This document shows, piece by piece, positions 11,470 to 62,699 of a DNA stretch of 64,000 bases (positions are counted from its first letter, which is position 1; each line of letters opens with the position of its first letter). The notes below the pieces were generated by a model. It saw only the letters and a list, made by a program, of their open reading frames with translations, was not told where the DNA came from and ran no database searches. This stretch comes from Tetracentron sinense (Eukaryota > Streptophyta > Magnoliopsida > Trochodendrales > Trochodendraceae): contig CM026560.1 of the NCBI GenBank assembly GCA_015143295.1, forward strand, positions 9,116,501 to 9,180,500, in the 5' to 3' direction. A program made the translations under genes and the position numbers.

Positions 11470-13688
11470 TGTAGCACCCCGGATATTATTTTTCTGTCCT
11501 GTATTAAAACCTTAATGTCTTTTCCTTGAATACGCAGTAGGAATTCCGAGTTTCTAAACTCCTTTTGGAGATCAGTCAACTTTGGGGACATTTTGGTCCA
11601 TAAATAAAGTAGAATTTGGAAATTCTAAAACGTCAGAAATGTTCCTTTTCGAAAGACGAATCTAACGCAAGTTGAATCGTCGAAATCCGACGAACGAGTC
11701 AAAAGTTATAGCCAAAACAGTAAAATGGGTCAAAAATCTGCAAAGCACCGATTGCTAGGGATCGCTCGGTTCACAACCGATCGCTCGGTCCAAATTAGCG
11801 ATCGATCGGTCCACAACTGATCGATCGGTGGCTATCGACTGATTAACTTTTTGTATGGGGAATTTTTCCAGAGAGGGTGTTTTTGACCGAGAGCTCGGTC
11901 AAGAATACCGGTCGATCGGTAGGCAACCGATCACTCGGTCATAACCACCGATCACTCGGTCTTTCGTGTTTTTGCAGAATTTCAGTAAGGGCTTTTAGGT
12001 CTTTTTGCCCTCAACCCTTGAGGCTATAAATAGGGGTCCTATTTCGAGGTATTAGAGTACTCTACCTATTTCTAACCTAATTTGGCAAAAAGGGAGAGAA
12101 AACCTAGGGTTTTGAGAGTTAGATTGCTTGGAGAAGGAGGAAATAGCTTGGATATCGCAAGGAAAGCTTGGAGATCTCCCCCAAATCACCTTGTGAGCGA
12201 TTTGGATCCAAGGGAAGGATGCCTAAGGTCGATAAACTCCCTAACTCAACTCTATTAATGATGTTTGGTGAATATTATTATAATATAAATGATAGAAATG
12301 ATAATTTGATTTGTTATTCCCTAATTATGCATAAATTAAGCTTGTTAGAGATGAAAATAGATTTATACTATGGATAAATTGTATGAAGGATGAGAAATAT
12401 TATGGAGGAAGGGATGAATGTATGAATGTGGAGTATGTTTGGGTTGTATAAATGGATTATGGTGTGGTGGAATGTTAAAATTGAGAAAGGGCAAAGTATC
12501 CATAATTAACGCACTCAAGGTGTTTGTTGAAATGCTTAAAAAGGAGAAATGTTAGTATGATGCTATTGATTATTAATAAATTAAGTTAAATAGATATTGT
12601 TGTCGCTATGATAAATTATGCCCTATTTACTTGTATGGTGATCGGTATTCGGGTAGGCCAAATCTTAGTGGAAAATCCTCCATGTTGGGAATTCTCTGAC
12701 TAGGGAGATATAACCTAACGGAGTTTCCTAACGGAAGATTAGAATCTAAGGGATGACTCATTTGAATTCTAATCACGACACTCAAGCACACATGCACTTG
12801 CATGGTAAATATTCAAGTCTCATGAGTCTACTTGTCTCACAAGCATGCATGCATCGAATACGAACATGTTACGAATTATGCCATGAAAGAATGATCCCCC
12901 ACTACGAACATCCACTCTACGCGTTGTCGCACTCATGTTATGCTATGGAAGAATGATCCCCCATTACGAACATCCACTCTATGCGTTGTCGAATACTATG
13001 AATTATGCGTTGACGGGACAAACACACTATGAATCATGTATGTATGAGTCTATGCATATGTTAAGGCAAGTTCATTGATAAGAATTGCATGAGTACACGA
13101 GTCAAGATGATGTTATGACATGTTATATGCTCTGCACTCTGATTATGTCTATTTTACGTAAAAGTATTATGATTAAGCTTAGATAAACTGAGTTATGATA
13201 TTGTTATTGCTCATGCTATCTTATGTTGTTGTTAGTTTGTTTATCCACTAAGTATTCCACACTCAGTCGACCTGTCATTGTCTTCAGGTTTAGGAGGAGA
13301 GCCGTGGACTGAAGAGGTGTACGCCGAAGAGGAGAAAGAAGGTGAGCTTCCTGAGGAGGAGGCTAGGGATTTTGATAGTCATCCCTATTGAGTAGTTTTA
13401 GTATTTCTTTTGGACGAGATGTTTTATATTAGACTTTTGACTTTTAGTTGATGTCGCCTTAATTGTCTTACTCTATTGATGGTTTTAGACTATTTCGTTT
13501 ATGAGGAGTTATGGTGTGTGGATTATCATTGTACATGATGGTTTGACTTCTTATGATCGAGATTTTATTATCCTCATTTTTGGAGACTCGTGTTAGTACG
13601 TCTTGTATGTATGGATTTTAAGCAAGTTTATATAATGTGACAATTTCAAAGTCCTATTTTAGCCTTGTAGGATTTTGGGGTCGTTACA
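11470..13688 (+). mobile_element. solo LTR, gypsy family, TSD TCTTC
   Basis: Begins TGTAGCACCCCGGA and ends GGGGTCGTTACA, flanked by a perfect TCTTC duplication (11465-11469 and 13689-13693). Length 2219 bp with no internal domain, PBS or PPT, so it is a solo LTR left by LTR-LTR recombination. From its start it carries a module around 11665-11720 (core CGACGAACGAGTCAAAAG), a palindromic word array (11747-11961), a TATA box at 12025, an AG-rich leader, imperfect repeats (about 12890-13010) and a 3' block containing CCACTAAGTATTCCACACTC that also occurs in the LTR at 60824-62699. Confidence 0.92.
11747..11961 (+). promoter_or_regulatory. U3 palindromic word array with TATA box 64 bp downstream
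   Basis: About ten variants of the self-complementary word ACCGATCGATCGGT (forms with CGCTCGG, CACTCGG and GAGCTCGG) flank a spacer TTTTTGTATGGGGAATTTTT followed by CCAGAGAGGGTG. The array ends at 11961; a consensus TATAAATAG box lies at 12025. The position just upstream of the box marks it as U3 enhancer-like sequence. The same word-spacer-word organisation recurs in the Copia LTRs and in the LTR at 60824. Confidence 0.8.
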
Positions 13689-13814
13689 TCTTCTCTCTTC
13701 CTTTCTCTCTCTACTTTCTCTCTGCTCTCTCTCTCCTCACTTTCGGCTCTCTCACACGAAATGGGGAGAAAATGAGGAAAGGGGGGCTGAGTCACCATGG
13801 TGAGGTGTCCCTCA

Positions 13815-13859
13815 TGATGTCAATGATGACATCATTGTGTGATGTCATTGATGACATCA
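13815..13859. repeat. two perfect-arm inverted words TGATGTCA...TGACATCA
   Basis: TGATGTCA-N4-TGACATCA occurs at 13815-13834 and again at 13840-13859, each with perfect 8 bp arms. This resembles a paired bZIP-type half-site arrangement and may be the equivalent, in the 9068-14565 LTR, of the palindromic arrays in the other LTRs. No TATA box is evident at the matching distance. Confidence 0.7.
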
Positions 13860-14570
13860 CACTTTGACTATTTGACTTGTTGACCAGTTTCCCACCTTTT
13901 CATGGGTACGACCCCCCATAATTCCTTGAAACGGCGTGCGATGATGACGAAACGACAAGTGACCGTAGAAGGGGCAGTCTGAAACCCGCTACCCGCTGTA
14001 CGAATCTCGGGAGAAAATGTTGAGTTTTAACAGTAAAACCAAAGTCCGAAAGAAAATTGCAAAACCCAAAAATTTCCTGATTTTGGACACTAAACGTGTG
14101 GTTTCGTGGTTTGAGTTGTAATAAAGCTGAAACGACAGACAGTCGTCCAAACAACTGACTGACACGTGGTGTGTGAGTTTCGAAGATTTCTATTAAGGCA
14201 ATCAAGAAACATTGAGTACCGACTGAATTTCAAAACTCACAGATTTACGGGTTTTTTACGTACGAGGCTTCACAGTTTCGCGAATCGATGCGTGACGGAG
14301 CTGACACAACATGTACTCTTACAGAAATGCAAACCGATACACAATGTGAGATTTTCAGGGAAAAACATTGGGTTTTACCTGTAATTATCGAACAACGAAT
14401 CCGATAACCAGAACCCTCGGTTACACCTAAACACTTTCCCAAGGTTTTACAGATTCCAATTAGGGAAAGTGACACTATAATATTCATAAATATCATTCTT
14501 TAATTAATTATACTTAAGGGTCATTCCGGCCTCAGGATTTTATTTAGAAAATCTGGGTCGTTACATGCTA

Positions 14571-16606: not shown

Positions 16607-16607
16607 C

Positions 16608-17765: not shown

Positions 17766-18376
17766 TGAAATTCCTTAGTTCAATGAACCCTTTGACCTAG
17801 AGGGGGGTGAATAGGTCTACTTAAGAATTTCTACCAATTTTAATTTTATCCAATCACACTCATTCAATCACACATGAACATGCAAAATTTTTTACGTGAA
17901 AAACTCTTCCGGGAAAAACCACGAGACCTAGTCCAGTACAAATTTCACAATGAGAATATTTAAACAGTACAAGACTTGAATCTTATCCAACCGGACACGA
18001 CACACCATTCCTCGGTATCAATTCCTTAGCTTGCAAACCACGAACTCAGCTTGTTCGATCTCTGCAACAACAGCTCCAATTCCTCACCGGCCAATCTTTC
18101 TCAAAGCGATCTACCACGATCTCCGAAGATTGATCTCCATCCTTGACGGCTTTGGCCCAAGCCAACCAACGCTCACAGCGGAGCACAATATGGGTTTTAG
18201 GGTTTTTAGAAGCTCTAGAGTGATCTCATCAAAGATTGAGGATCATTCAATGCAAGTTCATAATGATGTGAATGGATAACTTGCAACCCTATAGAATAAT
18301 TAATGGAGAAGGAGTGAAATATTTTCTAGAGTTTAGATGAACTCTAGAATGAGTCAAAAGTGCTCTCAAAGCTCTT
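17766..18376 (-). repeat. truncated 3' LTR of the minus-strand Copia element
   Basis: Matches 22094-22695 nearly base for base (CCTTAGTTCAAT, GGTGAATAGGTCTACTTAA, CCTCGGTATC, CAAAGTGCTCTC-like end). Homology ends at AAAGCTCT, where the sequence switches to integrase C-terminal coding DNA. The missing part is the LTR's 5' half, consistent with one deletion spanning pol and LTR. Confidence 0.9.
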
Positions 18377-19944
18377 CAGGCAAAAGTGGAATATTCTTCA
18401 GTATTGTCATCCTCAAGTTGCAAGGTCTTAGATCCTGAGTCATTAACCATCACATTTATGAACTCCATAACAGTAGAAGTTCTTAAGTTGTACACTCGAT
18501 AAGCCCTACTATTTGTGGAATATCCAAGAAAAATCTCTTCATCACTATGGGAATCAAACTTACCCAATTGCTCTCTATCCTTAAGGATGTAGCACTTACT
18601 TCCGAATACTCGAAAGTACTTGACATTGGGTTTGTTGTTGTTCCACAACTCATAGGGTGTCTTCCTTGTTCCAGGCCCAGTGTAGACTCTGTTTACAGTA
18701 TAACATGCAGTACTAACTACTTCAGCCCAGAAATGAACAGCCAGGTTGTTACTGTGAAGCATCACTCTAGCCATCTCTTGAAGCACCCTATTCTTTCTTT
18801 CCACAACACTATTTTGCTGAGGTGTTATTAGGGCTGAAAATTCATGTTTGATGCCCGATTCATCACAAAATTCATTGTACTTGGAATTTTCAAAATCCTT
18901 TCCATGATCACTACGAATCCGAGTGATAGGACATCCCTTTTCATTTTGCACTCTCAACCCAATACTCTTGAAGTTCTCAAAAGCATCCGACTTCTCTCTT
19001 ATGAATGCAACTCATGACATGCTTAAGAAATCATCAACCATCACTAGGATATATCGCTTACCTCCTAGACTTTCAATTCTGGTAGGACCCATGAGATCCA
19101 TATGTATTAATTCTAGTAGGTATGAGGTAGCGATATTTGAAGCCTTCTTGTGTGGGCTTTTAATTTGTTTGCCAATTTGGCATGGCCCACACACAGCAGT
19201 AGAGGGCTTCCCTAGTTTGGGCACTCTTCTCACACGTTAGTGTTTTGAGAGTTTACTTAAGTCTTTGAAATTCATGTGACCTAACCTCCTGTGCCACAAT
19301 TCAACTTCCTCAACTTTAACCCTGTTGCAGATTTGAGAAGAACCATCACTTGGAATTAGACCATAGCAATTATCAGTGGTTCTTGACACTTCCAAAACAC
19401 ACACACCTTTGTCATCCACAACAGAACACTTATTGTTGGTAAAGTAGACAGCATGGTGATTATCATATAATTGACTTATACTAATTAGATTAGCTTTCAG
19501 TCCTTCTATAAACAAGACATCCTTCAGTTTTAGAATGCCTGGAGCTTGGATGACACATTTTCCTTTCACAAGGGATTTGCTTCCATCACCAAAAGAAACA
19601 GTCTTATCTGAGCATTCCTCAAGTTGAGTGAAGAGGGACTTGTTACCTGTCATATGTCTGGAACATCCACTATCGAAATACCACATATCAAAATTTTGGG
19701 CTTTTAAAGCGGTGTGAATGACAAGGCATTTTAGGTCATCATTTCTCACATAAATGAACTTAGACTTTTGGTGAACCCTATTGTCTTTATTCATTTCATT
19801 TGTAGGCATGACCTTCTTCTTTTTAGATCTTCTGCTAATTCTTCTCTTCTGAGAGACCCTAGCATTCTGGTTCATCCTATTACCTTCTTCATGATGAGCA
19901 TAAGAAGTGTCATGACCATGTTGTGTACTAGAGAGTTTGAGCAA
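18377..19944 (-). pseudogene. Copia pol: protease and integrase, frameshifted, RT lost
   Basis: The protease motif WYFDSGCSRHMTG (catalytic DSG) lies near 19645-19683. The GAG-pre-integrase block [17 protein letters not shown] is near 19240-19290. Integrase core motifs follow: [10 protein letters not shown] near 19090, [16 protein letters not shown] near 18900 and TPQQNSVVERKNR near 18800, giving the D,D,E triad; then the [13 protein letters not shown] block. The G of the usual QQNGVVER motif is S here. Frames break near 19235 and around 18960-19010. Reading ends where LTR sequence begins at 18376, so reverse transcriptase is wholly absent. Confidence 0.9.
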
Positions 19945-19983
19945 TTTTCATCACTTCTTCACCCAAACTCCTAGATTTTTCAG

Positions 19984-22023
19984 CTACGGCTTGAATTTGC
20001 CTTTGAAGATTCCCTTAATGTTGAGTTTGATTTCATGAACCATTTCGGGGATTTCTCTTAAAGGCATTGCAGTTAGGTCGGGTGTGCCCTTCACTCCACA
20101 TTGGTAGCAAGTGGGTATGAACCTGGAATAAGGAGATCTTTTAGCTTGGGGCTGAACCTTAGTTCTCTCAGCTTCAGTTGAAGTTGAATTTTTACCATGT
20201 CCGGAAGTAACAAATGTTTGGTACAACTGAGAGTTTGGCATCTTAGCTTTTAATCCTGAGGAGGTGGAACTCACAAATCTTGGATTTTCATGTATTGGCT
20301 CAAATGTTACAGTAGACATCATACCGACATTCAAGGGACCAGGTGGTCTGTTTGGATGTCCTATGTCGAACATGCTTACTTTTGAGCGCTGTATTCTAGC
20401 CAGTTTATCCAGGATTTGAGTGTTGCTAAGGAGTCTAGCTTTTTTCTCGAGTTCAATTACTTTCTTAGCTAGCCCATCCTTAACTTTCAGAATATCGAGA
20501 AATTCCATTTATAGAAATTTAACTTTTTCAATAAGGTTTTCTCTTTCAGATTCCAATTCTGAAATGCAAGCCTTTGACTCTTCAGATACACTGATGGAGT
20601 TATCTTCCTCAGTTTCTAGAACCTTTACCCATTTGGACAGAAAAACAATTTCTTCCTCATGGTATTCTATTTTGGACATCAGTTCAGCTTTTTCACTTTC
20701 AAGCTAAGCTACTAAAGCATTGTTCCCTTCTGTTTCTAGTTTGCAAGAGTCACTTTCCTATTGAGCAATTTTAAGTTTTTTGTTCAAAGAGATCTGGGCT
20801 TTCTTCAGCTTGAGACTTTCAGAAAACAACATTTCATAGATTGTATCCATATATTCATCAGACTCAAAGACAGTGTAACTCTAATCATGATCTTCACTAG
20901 ACTCACTCACTTGATCTTCATTGCTCTTCTCTTCATAATTAGTGGGAGAATTGACAATCTCAGATAGGGTGACAGTGAAAGTCATATGATTCTCAGATTC
21001 TTCACCTTGAGGTGGAGCTTTCAAATTGTTCATCCTCAGATTCACTGTCATCCCATGTGGCATTCATCACATTTCCCTTACTCTTCTTCTTGTTAGGGCA
21101 ATCAGGTGAAACATGGCCATAGCCTTTGCATTCATAGCATTGAATGCCACGAGATTTCTTGTCAATTCCTTTGGGGATTTTCTTGTTTTCCCAAGGTTTT
21201 GATTTTGGCTTTTCAAAAGGTTTTCCTCTTTGTTTAGGATTGAACCTTCTATTTGTTTTTAGGTATTTTTGAAATTTCTTAACAAATAGAGCCAACTTCT
21301 TCTCTCCCAACTCAGCATCACTGTCATCTTTATCCAAGGTTTCCTTGACAGTTTTCAGGCCACAGACTAGTTTTTCTTGGATGGTCGAAGATTGAGTTCG
21401 TAGGTTTGGAGTGATCCGACCAATTCCTCAATCTTGAGAGCATCAACATTCTTGCTCTCCTCGATGGCAGTGACCTTAGATTGAAACCTTTCCGGTAGAG
21501 ATCTAAAGATTTTTCTAACAATTTTGGACTCACTAATTTTCTCACCCAGGTTGAAACTGGAATTAACAATGTCACTTAGTTTTGCATAGAATTCATCAAA
21601 AGTTTCATTATCTTCCATTTTCAGATTTTCAAATTTAGTGGTGAGAATTTGGAGCTTTGAGATCTTGAAATTGGTGGTACCTTCATGAGTCATTTCTAAA
21701 ATATCCTAAGCCTTCTTTGTTGTTTCACATGAAGAGATTCACCTGAATTTTTCTACAGTGACTGCAGTAAAGATTGCATTGAGACCTTTCATGTTCCAAC
21801 CACTTGTCTCGAGCTCATCTTTGTTCAAATCTTTGGAACTTTTAGTGAGTATTACATCACCTAGAATATTCACCAATGGAGTCCATCCATCTTGAATAGA
21901 CATCTAGATTCTCTCATCTATGGATTTGAGAAACGCTCTCATTCGAGCTTTCCAATACGCATAGTTGTTCCTATCAAACAATGGGGGACTAGAGATGGAG
22001 CCACCCTCTCTTAGAGTAGTCAT
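19984..22023 (-). pseudogene. Copia gag with two zinc knuckles, broken
   Basis: Starts at the ATG complementary to 22021-22023, 58 bp after the PBS. It shows the UBN2-type gag block (FDEFYAKLSDIVNSSFNLGE, LPERFQSKVTAIEESK near 21450-21620), a canonical CX2CX4HX4C knuckle CYECKGYGHVSPDC near 21130, an acidic and coiled-coil linker (20400-21000) and a damaged second knuckle CYQCGVKG near 20080. Several stops and frameshifts interrupt it. The order matches gag of the plus-strand element at 43062-45400. Confidence 0.85.
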
Positions 22024-22080
22024 TGACTTAAGGATAGACACAAGATCACACTTAAGGAATTAACCTTATGGGTGTACTCG

Positions 22081-22091
22081 CTCTGATACCA
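22081..22091 (-). other. primer-binding site (initiator tRNA-Met type)
   Basis: CTCTGATACCA is the complement of TGGTATCAGAG, the usual plant LTR retrotransposon PBS. It lies two bases from the inner end of the LTR, as in the Copia element at 39005. Confidence 0.9.
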
Positions 22092-22093
22092 AT

Positions 22094-23222
22094 TGAAATT
22101 CCTTAGTTCAATAAATCATTTGACCTAGAGGGGGTGAATAGGTCTACTTAATTGAGCAAAGAAGACCAATTTTAATTTTATCCAATCACACATGAACACG
22201 CAAAACTTTTTACGTGGAAAACTATTTCAGGAAAAATCACGGGACCTAGTCCAGCACAAATTTCACTATGAGAAGATTAAAACAGTACAAGACTTGAATC
22301 TTACCCAACCGGACACGACACACCGTTCCTCGGTATCGATTCCTCAGCTTGCAAACCACAAACTCAGCTTGTTCGATATCTGCAACAGCAGCTCCGGTTC
22401 CTCACCGGCTAATCTTTCTCAAAGCGATCTACCACGATCTCTGAAGATCGATCCCCGTCTTTGACAGCTTTGGCTCAAGCCAACCAACATTCACAGCCGA
22501 GCACAATATGGGTTTTAGGGTTTTTAAAAGCTCTAGAGTGATCTCATCAAAGAATGAGGATCATTCAATGCAAGTTCATAATGATGTGAATGAACAACTT
22601 GCAACCCTAGAGAATAATTAATGGAGAAGGAGTGGAATATTTTCTAGAGTTTAGATGAACTCTAGAATGAGCCTAAAGTGCTCTCAAAGCTCTCTAAAAA
22701 GTATGGTTCATGGACTAGGGGTGTTGCATTAAATAAAGGAACAACCCCCACAAGTTAGAAGTTACTAAAAATCAAATGAGAAACAAAACCCATATCAGGG
22801 TCGACCCTGGGAGTCACTTGGGTTGACCCAACATTGCACTTCGGTCAACCCAATTGTCTTCCAGGGTCGACCTTGGATTTTTAAGTTTCTGCCTTTTTTC
22901 ACCATTTTAAATTTTGGAGACTCAGGGTCGACCTTGAGGTGCCAATTTCAGAATTTTTGTTCCTTTTAACCTTAATGCATTCCTTCACTTGACCTAGGCT
23001 TTTTGGAACTAAATTCCATGATTTTGGGTATTTCCAAGTGGGTGATTTTTGATCTTCTAGGTCTCACTTACCATCCTAAACCTTGAGTCATTCTTAGATG
23101 ATGAATCTTCATTCTTCATCATGACATCTTCTTTACTTTACATCGAACTGGATGATGACCTAAGGACTACTATACAACCTTTTGGACTCGGAATTTTGCC
23201 AATACAAAAACTTGACTTTACA
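22094..23222 (-). repeat. 5' LTR of the minus-strand Copia element (1129 bp)
   Basis: TG...CA ends on the minus strand, next to the PBS on one side and TSD GTTTC on the other. At about 22797-22942 it carries several AGGGTCGACC(C/T)-type palindromic words and variants (GGGTTGACCC, GGTCAACCC), lying upstream of a TATTTAA-like box near 22731 when read on the minus strand. Confidence 0.88.
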
Positions 23223-23227: not shown

Positions 23228-25467
23228 TGTCGAGAACCCAAAACCCACCCTAAGACTTAGAGTGAATCTTAGACAACTTATCATGACATGCTTGACAAAC
23301 CATCCTGCAAATCACACGGGGAATATACAATAGAGGACAAAATAGAGGAAGCATAAACTAACATGGCACAGTAGAAGTTTAACCAAAACCTCAATGTATA
23401 TGCATGTTCCAAGTTTTTGTGCAAAAGTGTAAACAAAAAGAAAGGTGCGGACATGCCCGCCAAAATACATGGATATATAATCTCTCGTTCTCACTCACAC
23501 TCACTTAAAATCTATCACCTAATAGTAACCATCTACATGAGGCTCCTTAGCAGGGACCTCCTCGAAGTACTCCTCTTCCACCCATGGACCGGGAGCACAT
23601 ATGTCAAAAGGAGTGATCGCTCCACTAACACTTGTCGACATCAAATGTACGGCTAAGTATTGAAACACTCAGCGGGTACCAAATACTAACCAACAGTCAT
23701 AGCAACATAATAATGAAAATAAAGCAGAAGCAATTCATATCATAACAGGAAAGTAAACAGTTTATATTTCATACTTGCTTCACATCAAAGCTGAGAAAAC
23801 TTTTGAAATCATCGTGTGCTTGACTTGACTTTAAATACTCTTTTCATGCTTGAAAACTTATCTTGTCATGTTAAGTCTTGCTTGTCTTTTCATATTCTAT
23901 CTTGCTTGTCTTGTCGTGTCATGCATGTCTTGTCATGAAATTAAAATGCTCATGCTTGCTTGCTTGGAATTCAAACATGCTCATGCGCTTAGGATGTTAG
24001 TGCCCTTGAACAACTTGAAGGGAGGGTGGTGTAAACCCCCTCTTTTTGAGATATGAAAAATTCAACTTGAAGGGAGGGAAGTATAAACCCCCTCTTTTTC
24101 GAAAATGCAATAAGTAAACATGCATGCTTGGAGGCGCACTAACATCTTGCTTGACGTGTTCTTGTTCTTGTCAAAAGCAAAGCAAAACATATCGTAGGAT
24201 ATGCCCTACCTCTTATTCCAACCCTTCCGTTTGGCCTTGTCATGGTGTTCGTGAATCGAGACTAAAACCCTTGTCTTGAAAAACTCGGTAAACCATGTCA
24301 TGCATGCCGTGCTTGTGGTTTTGTATACATGCTATCACTTGGAATTAAACATGACATATGGAGTTCAATAATACATGTAATAGCATTCATTTCAACACAT
24401 TAAACAATTAAACACACTAGCATGAAACCCTAGAATTTTCACATGTCTTAAATCATGCTTTTCTTGATCAATTAATCATTCAATCCATCCATCATCCATG
24501 TGTGGTCATTATTAGTGAAATACCCTTCATATTTGTTTTCATCACAAAACACATCCATGGCATCCATCGCCCAACATCCATCTCCACTCATGCATCCTAT
24601 CTTATAGTATGTTCATAATTTAGGGAAAACGAGGAAGAAGGAAAACAAAAGAGAAAACATGACTAGGAGGGTAGCATAGGGTACCGACCTTGAAAAAGGG
24701 AAGGAAAACCCTTGAGAATGTCGTGGAAGATGCTGCCGAGCTTGGAGAAAGAACTCCACGCATGCTTGAGCCTTGGATTGAGAAATCCAAGCTTTGGGGA
24801 CGATCTTGGGTTCTCAAACCCTTGATTTCTCTCAAGTTGATGCCCTATGTGAAAACCCTTTTCTCTTCTCTCACTCTCTCTCAAATATATTGCTAAGGGT
24901 GTTTATGAATACCCTTGGCTCGAGCAAGCCTTTATGGGCAAGGGTGGAATGTCCAAAAGACAAAAAACCCCTTACTGAAATTTCTGCAAAATGCGAAAGA
25001 CCGAGCGATCGGTGCTTATGACCGAGCGATCGGTGGCCTACCAAGCGATCCGTGTTTTTGATCAAGCGATCGGTGTTTTTGATCAAGCGATTGGTTGAAA
25101 ACACCCTCTTTGGAATTTTTTCCTATACAAATTTTTAGATCAGTCGACAGATACCGATCGCTCGGTTTTGAACCGAGCGATCGCTACTTGGACCGAGCGA
25201 TTGGTCCTCTGTAAATTTTGACACTAGGTCCATTTTCCACTCAATTCCACTACTTGGACTTATCCCACTTCTATTCTAACCATTTTTCCTTCTGTTTTTC
25301 ACCCTCATAGGCTTAAGGAACACCTATTATCTTCTTAATACTTATATATCTTAAGAAATAACATATACATGATTTCAATATTTTCCTTTATTGAATTTTG
25401 AACATTACAAAGGCTTCATGCCTTGACACACATCCCAAGACACATACGAAAGTTTTGGGGTTCTACA
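23228..25467 (-). mobile_element. solo LTR of the gypsy family, minus strand, TSD (G/A)TTTC
   Basis: Bounded by TGTCGAGAACCC on the left and GGGGTTCTACA on the right, 2240 bp with no coding domain. The flanks are GTTTC (23223-23227) and ATTTC (25468-25472), one mismatch, and gypsy 3' spacer sequence continues on both sides once this LTR and the abutting Copia are removed, confirming the boundaries. It carries a palindromic array at 25000-25205 and a 3'-half block with CACTCAGCGGGTACC near 23668 related to the other gypsy LTRs. Confidence 0.85.
25000..25205 (-). promoter_or_regulatory. U3 palindromic word array (GATCGCTCGG type), minus strand
   Basis: At least seven variants of ACCGAGCGATCGGT with the spacer read on the minus strand as TTTGTATAGGAAAAAATTCC then AAAGAGGGTG, the same word-spacer arrangement as at 11747-11961. 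A minus-strand TATTCATAAA near 24905-24915 is the best TATA candidate, about 90 bp beyond the array. Confidence 0.75.
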
Positions 25468-42996: not shown

Positions 42997-43008
42997 TGGT
43001 ATCAGAGC
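42997..43008 (+). other. primer-binding site of the SIRE-like element
   Basis: TGGTATCAGAGC, complementary to initiator tRNA-Met, two bases after the LTR end. Confidence 0.93.
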
Positions 43009-43061
43009 TTGTTCACTGATAAGGCTAATCCCTTAAGTTTGATCCTGTATTATCCGTGATC

Positions 43062-49880: not shown

Positions 49881-49883
49881 ACC

Positions 49884-50142: not shown

Positions 50143-50150
50143 CCTATCTC

Positions 50151-51401
50151 ATGTCTGGCGTTCCTAAACGCCGAAATTTGATCCTCAACAACCAAGAGGA
50201 CCCTCCTGAAGATGAACAAAACCAAGAGCCCTTTTCCTTCACTCCTATAGGACATGAGATTTCAATAGGGGATCGACCAATTCGTAGAATGGTGGATTCT
50301 ACTACTGAAAATCGCCAAAAGTCTTTGGCAGATAAAACCCGGAAACAAAAGGGAAAAGCTAGTTCATCTTCAACTGTCCTATTGGGTCCCTTCATTAGCC
50401 CTAATGCTGCTCAACTTTATAGTGAGTATTTTAGTAAAAAGGGTATTATGGTTGAAAGGAGCATTAGAATTTCAGATTTTGGTGATTACTACCTTTCTAA
50501 ACTCATTACCGATCGTCACTGGGAAGGTCTTCTCAATTTATCCGGTCCTGCTCCTATTCAGTTAGTCCAGGAATTTTACTCAAATTTCTCTGAAATAAAT
50601 TTCAAAACCTGGTCTTTTAAATCTCGTTCTTTAGAACAATCAGTTTTGATAAATTCAAATGTCATTGCAAAATTTATTGGTTGTCCTCGAGTTCCAGATG
50701 CATATTATCCTTATAAATACAAGAAAGATGAGGATAAAGAATCTATGAACAATGTAGTCACATTCCTTTGTGGTGCTCCTACATTTTGGGTTGGTTCCTT
50801 AATCGAAGTCACAAAACTCACTAGGGATGCCAGACTTGTAAACCTAGTAATGAGTGCAAATATCCACCCAAAGGTTCATACTGCAGACCTTAGGGAAGAT
50901 AGAGCTCGATTTTTATTCAGTCTCCTTCGTGGACATGATATTGACCTTGCAGCACACATAATTGATTTGATGATTCAAGCCCATCAAACTCAAACTGTGG
51001 TTGGAGCTCTTCCGTTTGGATCCCTGATTACTAAACTCCTTGGTTCTCAAGGAATTATTGCTCCTCCTGGAGTTCCTACCCGTACTCCGAAAGGTCCAAT
51101 CAACAAAAAGACCATCGCTCAAAGTTTCTCTCATGCTTCAGTTCGAGATATTGAGGAAGAAGCTGATTTTGGTACAGGATCCTCTCATCCACCTCCGGTC
51201 ACGATTGATGATCTAGCCAGAATGATGAGAGAGATGCAGATGGATCTCTCAACGCATATTTCATCCCACCAGTAGTTCACCACAGAGATCCGTGGCAGAC
51301 TTGGATCACTGGATGCAGCAGTGCTGGGCGTACAAAGAGATGTTCGTGATTTTTGAGCTTATTATGAGTCCCAGCTCACTTCTGATGACGAGCAGGAGTG
51401 A
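50151..51401 (+). pseudogene. envelope-like ORF of the SIRE-like Copia element (plant transposon protein domain)
   Basis: Starts MSGVPKRRN. Residues about 85-275 resemble the domain found in the third ORF of sireviruses and Athila-type gypsy elements: a DFGDYYLSKLI block, VQEFYSNFSEINFKTWSF and a NVIAKFIGCP segment, then a long helical stretch. The role of these proteins is unknown; the envelope name is positional. The frame is open to TAG 51273 and then resumes (second stop TGA 51354) to TGA 51399-51401, with a C-terminal heptad-like LGSLDAAVLGVQRDV. If the upstream in-frame ATG at 50112 were used, a hydrophobic leader (FILSLIILAYLM) would be added, but that segment lies inside the probable 5'UTR intron. 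No transmembrane segment is evident otherwise. Confidence 0.8.
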
Positions 51402-52012
51402 TAGTTAGATTGATGTACTAGGATAGAAACTCCTTCTGGTTCATGTGTATATTTTGGAGTTTATCTTAGTCCTAGTTTTAGTTTGACAGTTCGATGTATT
51501 TTGTCTTGGTTGTACTTAGTACAAACCTTTTGGATGTTATTGACTTAGTCATCGATGTATGCATTTGGATGATTTATACTCATTCTCTTATATCTCATCT
51601 CATTTGTGTTTATGCGTTCATTTTATTGTTAATAGTCCGCCTTTGGCATTTCGAGCCAAAAAGGGGGAGAGTGCATGATATGTGCATAACACATGGATAT
51701 GAATTTGTGGATGATGATTTTGTGAATGATGTTATAGAAACATGATTAACCTGTTATGGATATAGTATTGTGGAATTGTGGATGTTATACATGTTTTATT
51801 TCTTCCCATATTTTATTTCTCATGCTTCACAGGTTTGTGATTTAGCATGTGCAGGCAAACAGGTTCTAAGTTTGGTGAATCATGACAAGTTAAAATGTCA
51901 AATGTCATGTATTTATTTTTGAGTCATGTAAAGGTCAATTTTCCATTTTTGAATCATTTGGGAAAATTTGTACCTAGTATATGAGTTAGTCTTGTTTTGT
52001 CCCAGAATTGCC
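51402..52012 (+). other. 3' untranslated spacer of the SIRE-like element
   Basis: T-rich, with short chance ORFs only. It includes a purine-rich AAAAAGGGGGAGAG at about 51657-51670, another PPT-like stretch. Confidence 0.6.
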
Positions 52013-52023
52013 AAAGGGGGAGA
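52013..52023 (+). other. polypurine tract of the SIRE-like element
   Basis: AAAGGGGGAGA, one base before the 3' LTR start. Confidence 0.92.
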
Positions 52024-52024
52024 T

Positions 52025-53234
52025 TGTAAATCCCTAAGTAGGTGTTGGCAAATTCCGTGATCATTAGATAGGTCATGTGAGTCGAGTCGTGTTCAACTTG
52101 TCAGAAGAGAAGAGCTAAAGCATCAAGAAGATTGAAGAAAGTGAAGAAAAAGCTCCTACTCTGGATCTAGAAAGGTAATGGACTTAGAGACCCCTACCTA
52201 GGTTGGATTTGACTTAGATAACTCTAAACATACCTAGGAGGATAGTTTTAAACCTAACAAAGTTGTTTGATCTTAGTTGAATCAAATAAACATGAAATGT
52301 AATATGGTTTGAAAAAATTATGTCTCAACCGATCGCTCGGTGTTGAGACCGATCGATCGGTGGCCTACCGAGCGTTCGATGGCTATCGACTGGAAAAAAA
52401 ATTTGTATGGGGTATTTTTTCAGAGAGATGATTTTCAACCGCTCGATCGGTTATGAGCACCGATCGATCCGTTTTGGACCGAGCGATCGGTAATGTGCAC
52501 CGATCGATCGGTCCCCGTAAAAAGAATTTTTATTTTTCTGGATTCTTTTTTTAAACCCTATATAAAGACCTAATTCGTATCTTTGTTTATTTTTGAAAGA
52601 GTAGAGGTCTGAGAAACTCCTCTAGGGTTTTTCCTATTGTTCTTATTAGATCTTTGTTGATCCCTCCTCTTTCTTTGATCCTAGAGAATGCAAGTATAGA
52701 TCTAAACCTTTAATCTTGCATTGTGTGATCTCAGATCTATATGAGATCCCTCTAGGGTTTGAAACTTCCTAAATTGATTCACAACCCTACACCTTGTGTG
52801 TGTGTCCGGTGTTTGATCCGGAGCCTTCGTGGAAGGAGATCGATCGTGTGTGATCGTGGTTTTTGAAGTAGCTTGAGAAGATTTGGTCGGTGTGGAACCG
52901 AAGCTGCTACGGCGGAGATCGAACCTGTTGGTTCGTGGAAATCAAGAGTAAGAGTCTATACCTAGGAACGTCGTTTCTGTTTTGGTAAGGTTTTGTCTTG
53001 TACTTGATATCTTTTCATAGTGAAGTTTATTGCTGGACGAGGTCCCGTAGTTTTTTTCCCGTTAGGGTTTTCCACGTAAAAATCTTCTGTGTTTGATTTG
53101 TGTGGATTGTCTGAGTGAATTGTTCATTGATTTCTAAACATATTAATACAAAAATAAAAATTGGTTAGAAATTATTAGATAGACCTATTCAGCCCCCTCT
53201 AGGTCTTAGAGATCATTGATCTGGATAAATTTCA
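52025..53234 (+). repeat. 3' LTR of the SIRE-like Copia element (1210 bp)
   Basis: TGTAAATCCC...AAATTTCA followed by TSD CTAGG. Its palindromic array (52328-52513) is uninterrupted, unlike that of the 5' LTR, and TATATAAAG starts at 52559. The leader contains a TGTGTGTGTCCGG stretch and a GGGTTTTCCACGTAAAAATC block. Confidence 0.95.
52328..52513 (+). promoter_or_regulatory. intact U3 palindromic array of the Copia LTR, TATA 46 bp downstream
   Basis: Eight words of the CCGATCGATCGG / CCGAGCGATCGG type in two blocks flanking GGCTATCGACTGG and TTTGTATGGGGTATTTTTTC plus AGAGAGATG. Both the words and the spacer match the gypsy LTR arrays at 11747-11961 and 61059-61244. Confidence 0.85.
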
Positions 53235-54994: not shown

Positions 54995-57055
54995 TGTTGG
55001 ACATATATGCCCTCAAAAGCCAATAAGAGACTTTTCTATGTTGATTAGATAAGCATCATATTCACACAACCAACTATAATGGGTATTTATGTTAATTACT
55101 GTCTCATATGATGATGACATAAAGTTTCATAGGTAACATTGTAGGAAAATCATGCAAAGGTTGCGAGGAGATATGATTTTCCGGTTCCTTGTAAACCTAA
55201 TATTGTTCGAAGCCTCTAGAGTACTGGTTGGGTGTCGTACTTCATCATGGCTTGCATATGTGTAGTTCTATGAGATAGTGTGATGAATCTCATTCACAGA
55301 GAGTGGTGACTCTTGACTAACATGTGAGTATATGTAGCAAGTACATAATACTGAACGGTGTCACTAGTGGATACCCTATGGAATACACTGTCAGATTGTA
55401 TTAGGGTTATCCATTTTACAAATTGTCCTTAGACCTGAGAGGTTAACATTTTTCTCAAATATTTGTCTATATGGCTTTGATGTGCCAATCAGCAATGTCC
55501 AATACACAGGACTAACTCCGGGTACATTGGGTCATGTACACAATGTTTGGAGAAGTATGTAAACACTCAATAAGGAATCCACAACTCCTTAATTGGAGAT
55601 AATGATATCAAGGTGATACTTGTTGAATTGAACTGTTAAATCCAGTACTGGTGCTTTTTCGGTAAAATGGTTTTTATCGAAGTTGATATTTTCAATATGG
55701 AAAAGTATATATAAATATATAAATGTCAGTTCTTTTCTAATGTTTCTTCAAAAGTGTTTTGGAGGTTCAGTTCAATGAAAAAGTAATCATGAGAAAATGG
55801 TCTATTCATAAGCTAGGGACTAAGATAGTGGAATTGTTCCAATCCCGGAAGGTTACAAGTGATATCGGAATGTGGAAGGATTTATTTGTAAATATATTGT
55901 GAGATGGTACTTACAAGCAATTCTCTAATTTCTGGAGGTTAATCACATTGTATTAATGGCATTAATTGTGATTGGTGGAAGTCCAGGGACATAGATGACA
56001 TTCTATGATCCTAGTGGAGTTTTAGGAAAGGTGTTTCCTAGTAACAATGCTTTAACCAAAAGGTTGAGTACTTGGTCCCACAACCGAAAATAGGAGATCC
56101 CTTTAGATCCCACACACAAGGACCTTCTTAAAGTATTTAATTTAATAATTAATTAAATTAATTAATTTCTCTAAGTAATCACTATATGGTATAGTGAAGC
56201 TCTAAAAGGTGGAATTACATTAGATGTGGAGAACCAAATGGGTAGGACCCATTGGGGAATATGATAAAAGATCAATTGAAGTGACCTAAATAGGGTTTAG
56301 AACCCTAGGGGCGTGTGGAGTAGGGCCCACCTAGGGTGGGACGCCCACTTCAAGGAATAATAATAATTGTTATTATTATTTAATTAGTATCTAATAGCTA
56401 CTCTCTTTATTGGATAAGGTTAGTTAGTTAGTTAGTTAGAGTTAGTTACTAATTAAAGATTCCTTGTTGGACAAGGATTCTATTAGTTTCTTACTAATCA
56501 AGGAATCATAATTAGATTAGGATAAGGATAAGATTAGTTGGACACTAATTGATAAGGTTAGTTTCTATTAATGATTATTCCTAATTAGATTAGGAGAAAT
56601 CAAGAATTAGAAACAAATTGAGGATTTTAATTGGATTAGAAAGTGGACTCTTGAGTTGCGAGCAACCCAAGCTCTCCTAGGCTTGGGACACAATAAAATT
56701 TCCAGAATTTTATTTTCTCCTCTCCTCAATCTCAAGCCCTCCCACTCCTCTCTCTTCGAGGTGTACGGTCAGCCCTCTTCTCTCCTTTTCTATTCTCTTG
56801 AGTTCTAAGTTATGAATAATCAAGAAGAAGAAGATTAAGGATCTTGTTAATCAAGAAAAGTTCTTGATCAATAAAGATTGGATCTTTATTTCAAGATCCT
56901 AGAGCTGAAAATTTGGAAGGGTCATTAGCTTCTATTAGAGAAAGCTTTAAAAGAAAAAAAAGGTTCGTGTGAATCGACAGGAGACTTAACACTTGTGAAG
57001 TTTTGCGAGTACTATTCTAACGTGGATTTGACTTAACAATTTCAAAGTCACAAAG
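54995..57055 (+). repeat. 3' LTR of the old Copia element, truncated
   Basis: Begins TGTTGGACATATATGCCCTC after the PPT AAGTGGGAGAT and matches 33158-35215. It stops after AAAGTCACAAAG; about 115 bp of LTR end are missing and gypsy gag sequence follows. The junction shares an AG with the gypsy sequence, fitting end joining. Confidence 0.9.
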
Positions 57056-57399: not shown

Positions 57400-60300
57400 G
57401 TTTGTTGCTTGTAAATGAATGTTTGGCAAGAGTGTTGATAGACACAGGATCCACTCACTCGTTCGTTTCACCAAGCTTTGCCAAAGGCTTTACGTCCGAG
57501 CCAAGCAAGCTACTTAGGGAGTTGTCCATTTCGACTCCACTGGGAAAATCCATTGAGACAGATGAAGTGTATCCGAATAGTGTTGTACGAGTCATGCAGC
57601 ACGAGTTGCCAGTCGACTTGATCCTTCTGGGATTTCAGGATTGGGATTTCGATGTCATCCTAGGTATGGATTGGCTCTCAACTCACCATGGACACGTGGC
57701 GTGTTTCGAGAAGGTGGTGCATTTTAAACCCGTGGGGTTAAAGCCGTTTCATTTCAGGGGACTTCAGAGAAGAGACATTGCCCGCCTTGCAGCTCTTAGT
57801 CTCGAGGGTGTAGAAGTGCGAGACTCCACACCCATTCCGGTGGTATGTGAGTATATGGATGTTTTTCCAGAAACCTTGCCGGGATTGCCTCCCGATCGTG
57901 CAATCGAGTTTGCGATTAAGCTAGCTCCAGGCACAGTTCCGATTTCAAGAGCTCCGTATAGGATGGCCCCTATTGAGCTTAAGGAGTTAAAAGAGCAGTT
58001 AGAAGAATTGCAAGGCCTTGGTTTCATCCGGCCAAGTGTTTCACCTTGGGGAGCTCCGGTTCTCTTCGTGAAGAAGAAAGATGGATCAATGCGTATGTGC
58101 ATTGATTACAGGCAATTGAACAAGGTCACGATCAAGAATCGTTATCCATTGCCTCGGATAGACGACTTGTTTGACCAATTGAAGGGTGCGCAGTTTTTCT
58201 CCAAGATTGACCTTCGATCTGGTTATCATCAGTTGAAGATCAAGAAAGAGGACATTCCGAAGACAGCATTCCGAACTCGATACGGTCATTACGAGTTTTT
58301 GGTCATGTCTTTTGGACTGACTAACGCGCTGGCAGCATTCATGGATTTGATGAATCGGGTGTTCAGATCGTCTCTCGATCAATGTGTGATCGTGTTCGTA
58401 GATGATATCCTTGTGTATTCTCAGTCACAGGAGGATCACACGAGAGATCTCCGTCTGGTATTGCAGACACTTCGAGAGCATAGTCTGTATGCTAAGTTGA
58501 GCAAGTGTGAGTTCTGGCTGAACAAGGTGTCTTTTCTTGGACACGTGGTATCTGCTGAAGGTATTTCAGTTGATCCTGCAAAGATTGAAGCGGTGATGAA
58601 TTGGGAAAGGCCGAAGAGTGTCACCGAGATTCGTAGTTTCCTCGGGTTGGCAGGATATTACAGAAGGTTTGTGGAAGGATTTTCAAGTTTAGCAGCTCCG
58701 CTTACCTATCTCACACGGAAGAACACGAGGTTCACTTGGAGTGATAAGTGCGAGGCTAGTTTCTTGGAGTTGAAAAAGAAGCTTACTTCGGCTCCTGTTC
58801 TCACAGTTCCATCTGAGAGCGGTGCTTTCGAAGTCTATAGTGATGCTTCACTAGTGGGACTTGGATGTGTTTTGATGCAGCATAAAAAGGTGGTCGCCTA
58901 TGCTTCCCGTCAGCTGAAGGAGCATGAGCAAAACTACCCCACACATGACTTAGAGCTCGCTGCAGTCATCTTTGCACTGAAACTTTGGCGTCACTACCTC
59001 TACGGAGAAGAGTTCGTGGTGTTCACAGACCACAAGAGCTTGAAGTATCTTTTCCTCCAGAAGGAGTTGAATATGAGGCAGCGTCGTTGGATGGAGTTCA
59101 TGAAGGACTACGACTGTTCCATCCAGTACCACCCGGGTAAGGCTAACGTGGTAGCCGATGCTCTTAGCAGAAAACCTTATGGAGTTATGGCTCAATTGAG
59201 AGTGCAAGAGTGGAAGTTATTACATGATATGTGTCATTTGGACACTACTCTCAGGCATGTCACCTATGGGCCGATAATGTCCAATGTGGTGGTTAGGCCA
59301 CAGATCCTGAGCGAGATCAAGGAGTTACAGAATTCAGATGTTGAGTTGCTTGCTTACCGAGACAAGTCGGTGAGTAACGGCAATCAGGAGTTCGCTTTAA
59401 ATGATGATGGTGCTATCACATTTAAGGGTAGGTTGTGTGTCCCCGCCGACACAGTTTTGAGGGATGAAATTTTGAATGAAGCTCACCGATCAAAGTACAC
59501 GATACATCCGGGAGGTACTAAGATGTACCAGAATCTCAAGAAGCACTACTGGTGGCGAAACATGAAGAGGGAAGTCGCTGAGTACGTCGCCAGATGTTTG
59601 ATTTGCCAGCAGGTAAAAGCCGAACATCAAAGGCCGGCAGGTCTTTTGCAGTCCCTTCCTATTCCGGAGTGGAAATGGGAGAACATCTCGATGGATTTCA
59701 TTGTGGGTTTGCCGGGAACGGCGAAGGGCTCCGATGCTATTTGGGTGATTGTGGACAGGTTGACTAAGTCTGCACATTTTATTCCGTACCGGACTACTTT
59801 CAATGCAAATCAGTTGGTAGCCCTATATGTTAAGGAGGTGGTTCGACTGCACGGTGTGCCAGTATCTATTGTGTCTGATCGAGATCCTCGGTTTACTTCC
59901 AGGTTTTGGAAAACTTTCCAGGATGCTATGGGTTCTCGTTTAGAATTCAGACTGCCTTCCATCCTCAGACTGATGGACAAACGGAGAGGGTGAATCAAGT
60001 AGTGGAAGATATGCTCCGAGCTTGTATGCTGGATTTTCAGGGTAGTTGGGAGGAACATTTTCCGTTGGTTGAGCTTGCCTACAACAATAGCTATCAGGCA
60101 AGCATCCAGATGGCACCTTTTGAAGCTCTGTATGGTCGGAGTTTTCGATCACCGCTATACTGGGATGAAGTTGGTGAGAGGAAAATTCTTGGTCCTGAGT
60201 TGATAGAGTGGACCGCAGGAAGGGTCAAAATTATCCGGGAGCGATTGAAAAGTGCTCAGGATAGGCAGAAGAGCTATGCGGATATACGCCCGCAAAGATT

Positions 60301-60731
60301 TGGAGTTCCGAGTCGGAGATCGGGTCTTTGTGAAGATTTCGCCGAGTCGGGGAATCATGCGATTCGGGAAGAAGGGAAAGCTCAGTCCTAGGTACGTGGG
60401 ACCATTTGAGATCGTCACAAGGGTTGGTGAGGTTGCTTACAGGGTAGCACTACCGCCTCACATGGCAGCGATCCATAATGTATTTCACGTCTCTATGCTT
60501 AGAAAATACATTTCGGATCCGTCTCACGTCATCGCTCTTGATCCTGTTGAGATATGAGAGGATCTTACGTTGGTTGAGCAACCAGTTCAGATTCTGGATC
60601 GTCGAGATCAAGTGTTGCGAACCAAGACTATCCCTTTAGTCCTAGTGAAGTGGCAGCATCATTCCAAGGAAGAGGCTACATGGGAGCGAGAAGCGGAAGT
60701 GAAGGAAAAGTACCCTCACTTGTTTGAGTAG
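57400..60731 (+). pseudogene. gypsy pol: PR-RT-RH-INT-chromodomain-like tail, two frameshifts and one stop
   Basis: Open from 57402 to 59950 in one frame. Protease DTGS at 57441-57452; RT with [31 protein letters not shown] (Leu where most relatives have Pro) and FVDD at 58395-58406; RNase H with [15 protein letters not shown] and TDHKSLKYL; integrase zinc finger ([10 protein letters not shown] ... CLICQQ) and core triad D59694, D59877, E59984. A one-base loss near 59950 and a one-base gain near 60288 move the frame; TGA at 60555-60557 (CGA expected) precedes the tail LTLVEQPVQILDRRDQVL ... WQHHSKEEATWEREAE ... YPHLFE, ending at TAG 60729-60731. Catalytic residues are intact, so decay is recent or mild. 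Confidence 0.93.
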
Positions 60732-60810
60732 TTTTCCTTGTTAGTTTTGTATGTATTTTGTTCTTGTTATGTTTTTGGCATCGTTCTAATTTCGAGGACG
60801 AAATTCTTGT

Positions 60811-60823
60811 AAGGGGGGAGGGA
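60811..60823 (+). other. polypurine tract of the gypsy element
   Basis: AAGGGGGGAGGGA, immediately before LTR start TGTAGAGCC. Confidence 0.93.
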
Positions 60824-62699
60824 TGTAGAGCCCCGAAATTTCATTTCACTAAGAATGAATAGTGTGTGAATAGTGCCCAAGTGTGGTTTTGTACACTTAT
60901 GAGTCTTATGTTAATATATGTGTTTGGAATTATGGCGTATATGTTCCAATGGCTCTATATGTCTTTAGGGAATGTGTTGAAAGCATAAAAGAGTGTTGGA
61001 AGTGCATTGGGGAAGATTCGAGTGGTGTAAACAAGGTTTTTCAGCAAAACAGGGGTCGACCGATCGCTTGGTCATTACCTGCGATCGATCGGTCAACTAC
61101 CGATCGCTCGATAGCTGTCGCACGGTCAACTTTTTTGTATGGGGAAAAATTCCAGAGAGTGTGTTTTTGACCGATCTCTCGGTCATAACACCGATCGACC
61201 GGTAAGCCACCGATCGCTCGGTCCATACCACCGATCGATCGGTCATACGCAGATTTTCTTCATTAAGGGTGTTTAAGACTTTAACCATCACCCTTTGCCT
61301 ATAAAAGGGCTGGGTTCGTGCCTTAGGGTTTCACAAACCCTTTGTGCATTGTTTTTGAGGGATTTGAAGAGGAGAAGGAGGAGAGGACCTTGGTGATCGT
61401 TCAAGCTTGTGGAAGATCAAGTTCTTCCTTTCCATTTGGTGTTTTCCAACCAAGAACTCACTGTTCTTGCTTGTTCCAGCCATTGGGAGTCAAACTCATT
61501 GATTTCTCTAAGGTAGATACACTCTACTACAATCTTGCAATCCTACTAGTTACTAATTATGATTCTTCTTATCTATGCCCTATCTATATGTATTGGATTT
61601 ATGTATGAAAATGTGTGATTATATACTTGGATGAAGGTTACTATTATGATGCACTCTAAGTGTTTGATAAAATACCTCTAAGGGATTCTATGCTTAAATA
61701 CGATGATTTCTCTTATTAAGTGCATATGCTCGCATGTCTCGCATGAACCGATGGTTTCCATGGATTTCTCCAAGTACAAACAAAGGTTTTTCACGAAAAG
61801 ACGAATAATGAATGATTCTAAGTAACTCTATGATTTCTCTAAGATCGTTTCACAAGCTCTAAGGATCATACCATGCTCACAAGGAAACTCTATGATAATG
61901 CTCTAAGATCGTCTCACAAGCTCCACGGATCACAATGAAATGCTCTAAGATCTCTAAGGTTATGCTCTATGGAAATGCTCTACGGTATTGCTCTATGCTC
62001 TATGTCTCTACGGATCATAATGACTCTAAGTAACTCCATGAACTCACAAGAACTCATAAGGCTATGATTATCGATTGACTCACACGGTTATAGTTTTTGT
62101 TTCGAACATTATCTCACATACGTTTTCACGGTTTCCATGCTTTAAGGAATTTACGGATTTCATTCTCCATGTCTTGTATGCCCCATGCCTAACCGTTTTA
62201 TTGTTATTAGTTTGTATACACTGAGTATTCCATGCTCAGTCGATATTGTTATGATCGGCAGGTGCTCGGGTTCCATTCGATTTGTGTGGCGAAGAACCTT
62301 GGGCCGAGGAAGAGTACCGTGACCCGGAGCCTTCCATGGATCACTATCATGATGATGGTGCGTTAGATAGGAGTCGTGACTTCGATTTCTGTTGATCGAC
62401 CGACTTAGAACTTGTGTCATTTTGTTATGTGAGTGTGGGGTTTGTCCACTCCACTTTTGGGTTTCTCACACATGTATACTTGTTGGTTCTTACTTGAGCC
62501 AAGTTATAGGAGTATTCATTTTGCTTCCGCTATGTTTAGTATTTTATTTTCCGCTGTGCATTGTATTTCGTTTCCGCTATGTATATTCAGGTACTCTGAC
62601 AGGTTTCCACGTGTGCCTTATGTATCATACTGGAGGTATGATATGGCGGTCACGAGTCAAAGTATCCTTAACTCCTAGGGGGTATTTTGGGTCGCGACA
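60824..62699 (+). repeat. LTR of the gypsy chromovirus (1876 bp), followed by a PBS
   Basis: TGTAGAGCCCCG...GGGTCGCGACA. From its start: a GTGTGAATAGTGCCC stretch, a palindromic array (61059-61244), TATAAAAG at 61300, a leader, a run of CTCTAAGATCGTCTCACAAG-type imperfect repeats (about 61840-62050), and a 3' block with CACTGAGTATTCCATGCTC and GGCAGGTGCTCGGG. The last 1.25 kb matches the minus-strand fragment at 31607-32860. Confidence 0.93.
61059..61244 (+). promoter_or_regulatory. U3 palindromic array of the gypsy LTR, TATA 56 bp downstream
   Basis: Words ACCGATCGCTTGGT, GCGATCGATCGGT, ACCGATCGCTCG, ACCGATCTCTCGGT, ACCGATCGACCGGT, ACCGATCGCTCGGT and ACCGATCGATCGGT, with the central spacer TTTTTTGTATGGGGAAAAAT then TCCAGAGAGTGTG. 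Same arrangement as in the Copia LTRs. Confidence 0.85.

Follow-up and report, generated by a model that had tools for sequence, protein, structure and literature searches.

A palindrome-array module common to the U3 regions of Sirevirus-like copia and gypsy-type long terminal repeats in Tetracentron sinense

Results

A module shared by LTRs of two superfamilies

A 64,000-nucleotide stretch of the Tetracentron sinense genome (assembly GCA_015143295.1, contig CM026560.1, forward-strand positions 9,116,501 to 9,180,500), referred to here as the window and numbered from its first letter, is plant DNA dense in long terminal repeat (LTR) retrotransposons. It contains a Sirevirus-like Ty1/copia element with two LTRs, a degraded second element of this kind, a Ty3/gypsy pol region that adjoins one LTR (LTR D), and further gypsy-type LTRs, several of them solo (Table 1). 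An array of palindromes around a homologous spacer, hereafter the module, is present in the U3 region of both LTRs of the first copia element and of three gypsy-type LTRs (A, B and D).

The module consists of three palindromes, a spacer of ~57 bp and four further palindromes, all 14-mers of the type ACCGATCG[A/C]TCGGT. It is 186 bp long in LTR A, LTR D and the copia 3′ LTR (185 bp from the first to the last palindrome plus one shared base) and 206 bp long in LTR B, which has one extra 21-bp unit and five words after the spacer; LTR A has further imperfect words at 11747 and 11757. Word-to-word steps are 19, 20 or 21 bp, with a tendency to alternate, and all four full modules keep a gap of 70-71 bp across the spacer. 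Ungapped identity among the 186-mers is 44-64% and gapped identity 70-79%, the equal lengths holding only net of 1-2 bp indels. A preliminary description of this DNA had listed such arrays around a conserved spacer, and they were found at every place it gave; its array-to-TATA distances of 64, 56 and 46 bp (LTR A, LTR D and copia 3′ LTR) were right, and the block that it put at roughly 180 bp has the two lengths above.

The earlier claim that the homology goes far beyond chance was borne out by several comparisons. The 14-mer ACCGATCGATCGGT has 6 exact and 17 one-mismatch occurrences in the window, both copia LTRs counted, against a mean of 0.0 each in 20 first-order Markov simulations. When up to 3 mismatches are allowed, the spacer pattern matches five times, once per module copy with both copia LTRs counted, and in none of 100 shuffles. 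Within the spacer region, TTTGTATGGGG is found at 11850, 42147, 52402 and 61134, and GGCTATCGACTG at 11830, 39361 and 52381, that is, in LTR A and both copia LTRs, being diverged in LTRs B and D. In a BLAST of the window against itself, run in 1-kb pieces, copia aligns across the module with LTR A over 192 bp (72% identity, E 4e-22), with D over 190 bp (70%, E 1e-16) and with B over 139 bp (68%, E 5e-9). Identity among the gypsy modules is 73-79%, A being closest to D (79% over 187 bp).

The alignment also extends beyond the palindromic words, a point on which the preliminary description had made its reading depend. With the palindromes removed, the copia and LTR A spacers agree at 39 of 47 positions (score 50; 2000 shuffles reach at most 28), and the gypsy-gypsy pairs score 47-56 against best shuffles of 23-29; copia-D and copia-B are weak, as considered below. 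Judged from these alignments, the module links among A, B and D are firm, and copia is firmly linked to A. The CpG observed/expected ratio is 1.5-1.9 in the modules versus 0.44-0.76 in the remainder of the same LTRs.

Elements that carry the module

The copia element codes for gag, integrase and an RVT_2 reverse transcriptase (RT), with the integrase ahead of the RT and an extra open reading frame (ORF) behind pol, the arrangement of the Sirevirus lineage. Its LTRs differ at 21 of 1210 aligned sites, and the insertion is therefore fairly young. Among the 120 relatives of its RT listed out of 7782, those that are named come from flowering plants, including Acer, Malus, Vitis and Camellia, with a best identity of 73%; no RT match was found in viral_contigs. 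The array of seven words lies in U3 and ends ~46 bp before TATATAAA, and the word arms, ACCG...CGGT, bear the CGG/CCG signature of the palindromic repeated motifs (RMs) of Sireviruses.

One perfect palindrome, at 49884, which adds to the positions described earlier, and a word with three mismatches at 49965 lie inside the element upstream of the ORF behind pol, which we call env-like; this is the low end of what is described for RMs upstream of ENV. The perfect copy stands before both a TATA box and this ORF. In total, the element has seven palindromes in the 3′ LTR, one perfect and one imperfect internal copy, the published criterion being at least 8 in the 3′ LTR and linker. By eye, the palindrome at 49884 is immediately preceded by 11 bases, ATTTTTTCAGA, that recur in the copia LTR spacer, and immediately followed by 8 bases, CTTTCGTG, that also follow the last word of LTR A. 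A protein search with the env-like ORF returned no homologue at E<=1e-3, and none was found in PDB at E<=1; AlphaFold2 on this ORF alone gave no usable model (mean predicted local distance difference test score, pLDDT, 36.5).

The element that ends in LTR D has the protease-RVT_1-integrase order, a chromodomain at the integrase end and a polypurine run abutting the LTR, as expected of a Ty3/gypsy chromovirus; the integrase end and the chromodomain lie outside the frame of the main ORF. Its pol gave 14 pattern matches in viral_contigs, none of which was confirmed. At 62690-62720, LTR D is placed between this pol and polypurine run on one side and a primer-binding-site-like TGGTATCAGAGC on the other, as in complex elements in which two internal regions share one LTR. 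LTRs A and B and the nested LTR E are solo, and they are called gypsy-type from similarity to D, to a relative (LTR G) or to each other, without an adjoining pol. LTRs A, B, D, E and F may belong to the Tekay/Del lineage, as suggested only by the LTR length of ~2 kb and the chromodomain.

Related LTRs with other arrays at the same place

The module is present in three of five gypsy-type LTRs that retain U3 and in one of two Sirevirus-like elements, a count that leaves out LTR G (31603-32850, truncated before U3) and a partial LTR of the second Sirevirus-like element (17766-18375). At this place, between flanks that are 84% identical to LTR A over 122 bp upstream and 86% over 43 bp downstream, LTR E has an array of 26-bp tandem units (41354-41760) and palindromes of which AACGTATACGTT is an example. 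LTR F, which is ~65% identical to A over 192 bp upstream, has ACGTCGACGT and ACATCGATGT palindromes (~26160-26345) ahead of TATAAATA at 26381, and the degraded second Sirevirus-like element (17766-23222, minus strand) has an array of its own. Because other repeats stand at the same place in E, F and the second Sirevirus-like element, the array behaves as an exchangeable U3 cassette. The 26-bp array of LTR E also gives a minus-strand frame of 184 amino acids, which is probably spurious. In the available text of a survey (PMC6911290), LTRs are described as not commonly targeted by nesting; LTR E is nonetheless nested between the palindrome clusters of the module.

Borders of the copia-gypsy similarity

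The preliminary description had called the rest of these LTRs unrelated, which held between copia and gypsy and failed among the gypsy LTRs. Eight LTRs (A, B, D, E, F, G, copia 3′ and second Sirevirus) were compared by blastn (sense strands only, E<=0.01) with the module alone masked, so that the other cassettes in E, F and the second Sirevirus stayed in the comparison, and none of 12 copia-gypsy pairs matched. Matches were obtained for 12 of 15 gypsy pairs, all except B-D, D-F and F-G; examples are A-E, A-D (89 bp, 73%, E 3e-8) and D-E (520 bp, 60%). The copia 3′ LTR also matched that of the second Sirevirus-like element over 468 bp (68%).

None of the six copia-gypsy comparisons (with A, B and D) of the 150-bp flanks on either side of the module rose above random level, the fraction of 500 nulls reaching the observed score being 0.25-0.90. 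Among A, B, D and F, the downstream flanks are mutually related (null fraction 0.000-0.016). For LTR A, the module is nearest to D, the upstream flank is nearest to E, and the downstream flank is about equally near to E and B; the A-D flanks do not align upstream and align weakly downstream. This disagreement between module and upstream-flank neighbours is as expected from exchange.

Two further relationships were considered and rejected. In a binned global alignment, copia and A reached 84% in one 31-bp bin, and a few further bins of the flanks equalled or exceeded 68%, the 95th percentile of the shuffles, as if copia-gypsy homology reached the TATA region; these bins were set aside because the method is too noisy, and local alignment of the flanks against random controls found nothing. 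A derivation of the spacer from the 5′ end of the second Sirevirus-like LTR was tried on the match of the D spacer to 23214-23190 (score 27), which is not significant: background stretches as good make up 1.1% of 522 for D, 8-9% for A and B and 43% for copia, and the profile gives E 0.15.

Other features of the window

In the copia element, ~346 bp are tandemly duplicated (95%) at 44039-44732, behind the gag ORF and ahead of the pol ORF that comes next. A direct repeat of ~2 kb (33158-35216 and 54995-57055, 96-99% identity, 21.8 kb apart) flanks the copia element, and part of it is copied at 62859-63331 (79%). Degenerate repeats rich in ACACCTCTGACAT occupy 9776-10403.

Table 1 Elements, LTRs, modules and related features in the window
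Feature	Position	Strand	Remarks
LTR A, solo, gypsy-type, 2219 bp	11470-13688	+	Target duplication TCTTC/TCTTC; identified by ends and flanks; masked similarity to B, D, E, F, G
Module, LTR A, 186 bp	11776-11961	+	Palindromes at 11776, 11797, 11816, then 11886, 11907, 11926, 11947
TATA box TATAAATA, LTR A	12025-12032	+	64 positions past last base of module
Second Sirevirus-like LTR	~22094-23222	-	No module
Array in second Sirevirus-like LTR	22796-22945	-	CAGGGTCGACCCTG-type palindromes; similar distance from LTR start
LTR B, solo, gypsy-type, 2240 bp	23228-25467	-	Flanks GTTTC/ATTTC (4/5 match); masked similarity to A, E, F, G
Module, LTR B, 206 bp	25000-25205	-	
LTR F (start and U3)	25552-26388	+	Related to A, B, E; no module
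Sirevirus-like Ty1/copia element	39005-53234	+	Target duplication CTAGG; Pfam RVT_2, rve, gag
Copia 5′ LTR	39005-42994	+	Holds nested LTR E
Module, left part, copia 5′ LTR	39308-39381	+	
LTR E, nested solo, gypsy-type	39382-42141	-	Inserted in A-run of module spacer; AAAAA on both sides; no module
Alternative cassette, LTR E	41407-41944	-	Between flanks homologous to LTR A
Module, right part, copia 5′ LTR	42142-42258	+	TATA at 42306, 48 positions past array
Internal perfect palindrome ACCGATCGATCGGT	49884-49897	+	Upstream of env-like ORF; TATAAAAC at 49914; 3-mismatch word at 49965
Env-like ORF	50112-51275	+	Label from position after pol only; Pfam PF20167 Transposase_32, 'putative plant transposon protein', E 6.9e-27
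Copia 3′ LTR	52025-53234	+	
Module, uninterrupted, copia 3′ LTR	52328-52513	+	TATA at 52559, 46 positions past array
Gypsy pol	57402-59993	+	RVP_2, RVT_1, RNase H, Integrase_H2C2
SH3_Tf2-1	60249-60554	+	Other frame than main gypsy pol ORF
Chromodomain	60558-60728	+	E 3.5e-8; other frame than main gypsy pol ORF
LTR D	60824-62699	+	Directly behind polypurine run of gypsy element; followed by primer-site-like TGGTATCAGAGC
Module, LTR D, 186 bp	61059-61244	+	TATA at 61300, 56 positions past array

Discussion

The homologous module, the lack of any other copia-gypsy LTR similarity in the comparisons made and the relatives without the module agree with the earlier suggestion that two superfamilies share a U3 block; that they exchanged it is a reading that these results favour. 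We consider it probable, at roughly 0.6, that recombination transferred an array of transcription-factor sites between LTRs of Sireviruses and chromoviruses. Since relatives on both sides lack the module, exchange accounts for the pattern better than inheritance does. Nested insertion, the other source proposed in the preliminary description, was rejected on the presence of two copia LTRs, the target duplications including CTAGG, the intact module in the 3′ LTR, and the different array, without the module, in the nested LTR E.

The conserved pitch and gap upstream of the TATA box, in U3 regions that have otherwise turned over, point to cooperative protein binding. The module would be a U3 regulatory cassette in which seven or eight 14-bp dyad sites, with a pitch of 19-21 bp, flank a spacer that is A/T-rich and conserved; in LTRs A and D and the copia LTRs, the TATA box follows it at 46-64 bp. 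These sites probably recruit a DNA-binding protein, encoded by the host or by an element, that binds them cooperatively and starts LTR transcription or keeps it open, and the identical site upstream of the copia env-like gene probably serves an internal promoter. The cassette was probably transferred by recombination, which may have been template switching between co-packaged RNAs, in which a switch within U3 would be copied into both LTRs and the palindromic words at both cassette edges would supply microhomology. Selection would afterwards have kept the cassette, with the remaining U3 turning over.

Several points weigh against this exchange. The module lineages at hand number only four and come from a single window, and neither the direction nor the number of transfers can therefore be read from them. 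Copia-gypsy identity (68-72%) is slightly below that among the gypsy modules, so that any transfer would be old, and a common third source fits this equally well. The spacer-only scores are weak for copia-D (27; best shuffle 27) and copia-B (28; best shuffle 31), with Gumbel p values of ~5e-4 and ~8e-4, respectively. The 150-bp upstream flanks are mutually unrelated even among A, B and D, and fast decay around a constrained block could therefore also give sharp borders. No TATA[A/T]A match was found in the 150 bases scanned in LTR B. High CpG is not general among the arrays, the ratios of the other cassettes being 1.17 in LTR E, 1.34 in LTR F and 0.45 in the second Sirevirus-like LTR. Finally, switching from superfamily to superfamily requires co-packaging, and the recombination known for ONSEN is within one family.

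As to function, the module may instead serve epigenetic control, as a hairpin-forming small-RNA target or as an array on which an anti-silencing factor lands, in the manner of VANC in the Arabidopsis VANDAL transposons, a possibility that we hold only tentatively. RNA of the two modules folded, from the copia 3′ LTR (z -5.7) and from D (z -4.7), is more stable than 200 shuffles each, palindrome motifs in the LTRs of three maize Copia families are called small-RNA mapping hot spots in the portion of the literature available, and VANC is described, in the accessible text, as binding a short motif, with arrays that vary from one related element to the next. The z-scores are, however, unspecific because any palindrome array folds well, and they neither prove nor exclude a small-RNA role. 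Moreover, no element-encoded binding protein was identified, and the structure model of the env-like ORF is of no use here.

As to origin, the main rival is a third source, a host promoter, satellite or other mobile element from which copia and gypsy would have taken up the module independently of each other. The similar divergence of all pairs (68-79%) and the edges at palindromes are in keeping with such captures. Several of them into the same part of U3 would be needed, however, and the 64-kb window holds no further match to the spacer pattern and no profile match above threshold (best other E 0.15; the profile models were built from the same copies, and their E-values are not independent evidence). 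The spacer pattern has no match in viral_contigs. Its five matches in prokaryote genome_contigs come without a palindrome match and are taken as chance: three (L002, L003 and L004) have a 32-base profile match at the pattern (E 0.002-0.017; model positions 73-104 in one alignment), L005 has a chance-level profile match elsewhere, and L001 has none. We regard a third source as rather unlikely.

Common inheritance, with an ancestral module kept by selection while all else diverged, would explain why the module is far better conserved than the remaining U3 even among the gypsy LTRs. It is improbable, since LTRs E and F and the second Sirevirus-like element have other arrays in place of the module, which would moreover have to be older than the split between Ty1/copia and Ty3/gypsy (here marked by RVT_2 and RVT_1, respectively). 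Convergence of unrelated U3 regions on sites for one host factor is very improbable: different palindromes at the same place in different LTRs indicate that sites arise and turn over readily, but convergence on a 14-bp site would not be expected to give a spacer in common, three copies of the same length and one pattern of steps, and the spacer alignment already speaks against it.

The copia half of the finding is of a known kind, because Bousios et al. (2010, PMC2829016) describe in Sireviruses, in the sections available, palindromic RMs with CGG/CCG arms in the LTRs upstream of the TATA box and further copies, 2 to 18, upstream of ENV; RMs are reported there as absent from classic Ty1/copia elements. 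The array resembles these RMs in its CCG/CGG arms, its place in U3 before the TATA box, its copies before ENV and its CpG richness, and ACCGATCGATCGGT is not among the 13 RMs in Table 3 of that article. Unlike those RMs, the array is not confined to Sireviruses: the same module, with a homologous spacer, is in gypsy-type LTRs A, B and D, the last adjoining an RVT_1 pol with a chromodomain. In the available text of PMC2829016, gypsy is named three times, in other connections. The homologous module in gypsy LTRs is the new part. Among the matches listed in a literature search over titles and abstract openings, with few subscription papers covered, there was no U3 module common to copia and gypsy LTRs.

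VANDAL transposons are not LTR elements, and their motifs are arrayed in one orientation and are not palindromes. As in the VANC/VANDAL system (Nat Commun 2017, PMC5735166, accessible text), short motifs form arrays in noncoding parts whose content differs between related elements; there, by contrast, the element-encoded binding protein is known. The plastic 5′ CpG islands of Del chromoviruses (Cruz et al. 2014, PMC4029996) likewise form a fast-changing, CpG-rich region toward the 5′ end of a gypsy LTR, read as a moving silencing target; in that article, however, the word palindrome is absent and no CpG islands were found in eudicot Del, and its available part reports no module shared with copia. 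A process able to bring a new U3 into both LTRs is seen in the recombination of ONSEN members during transposition, in one case within U3 and between members of one family (PMC5668417), and in the template-switched complex elements proposed for Triticeae (Sabot and Schulman 2007, PMC1950507). The sections available of these two articles contain no case of copia-gypsy switching.

More speculatively, and at present rather doubtfully, a pool of interchangeable palindrome cassettes may circulate between Sireviruses and chromoviruses of this genome, with the sharers using one trans-acting factor and gypsy elements pirating Sirevirus activation or anti-silencing. The factor might be encoded by the Sirevirus; the env-like gene of that element has the same site ahead of its TATA box.

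LTR promoters control the timing of retrotransposon movement and the effect of the elements on neighbouring genes. The four module copies point to the dyad arms, the 19-21 bp pitch, the 70-71 bp gap and the spacer core as the constrained parts. If U3 cassettes do cross superfamilies, features common to all carriers would offer a route to the factor that binds the Sirevirus palindromes, which Bousios et al. (2010) were unable to name, and LTR regulation would evolve by network exchange and not by descent. On/off switches may thus pass between selfish elements that share no other promoter DNA, and otherwise unrelated elements could fire or be silenced together.

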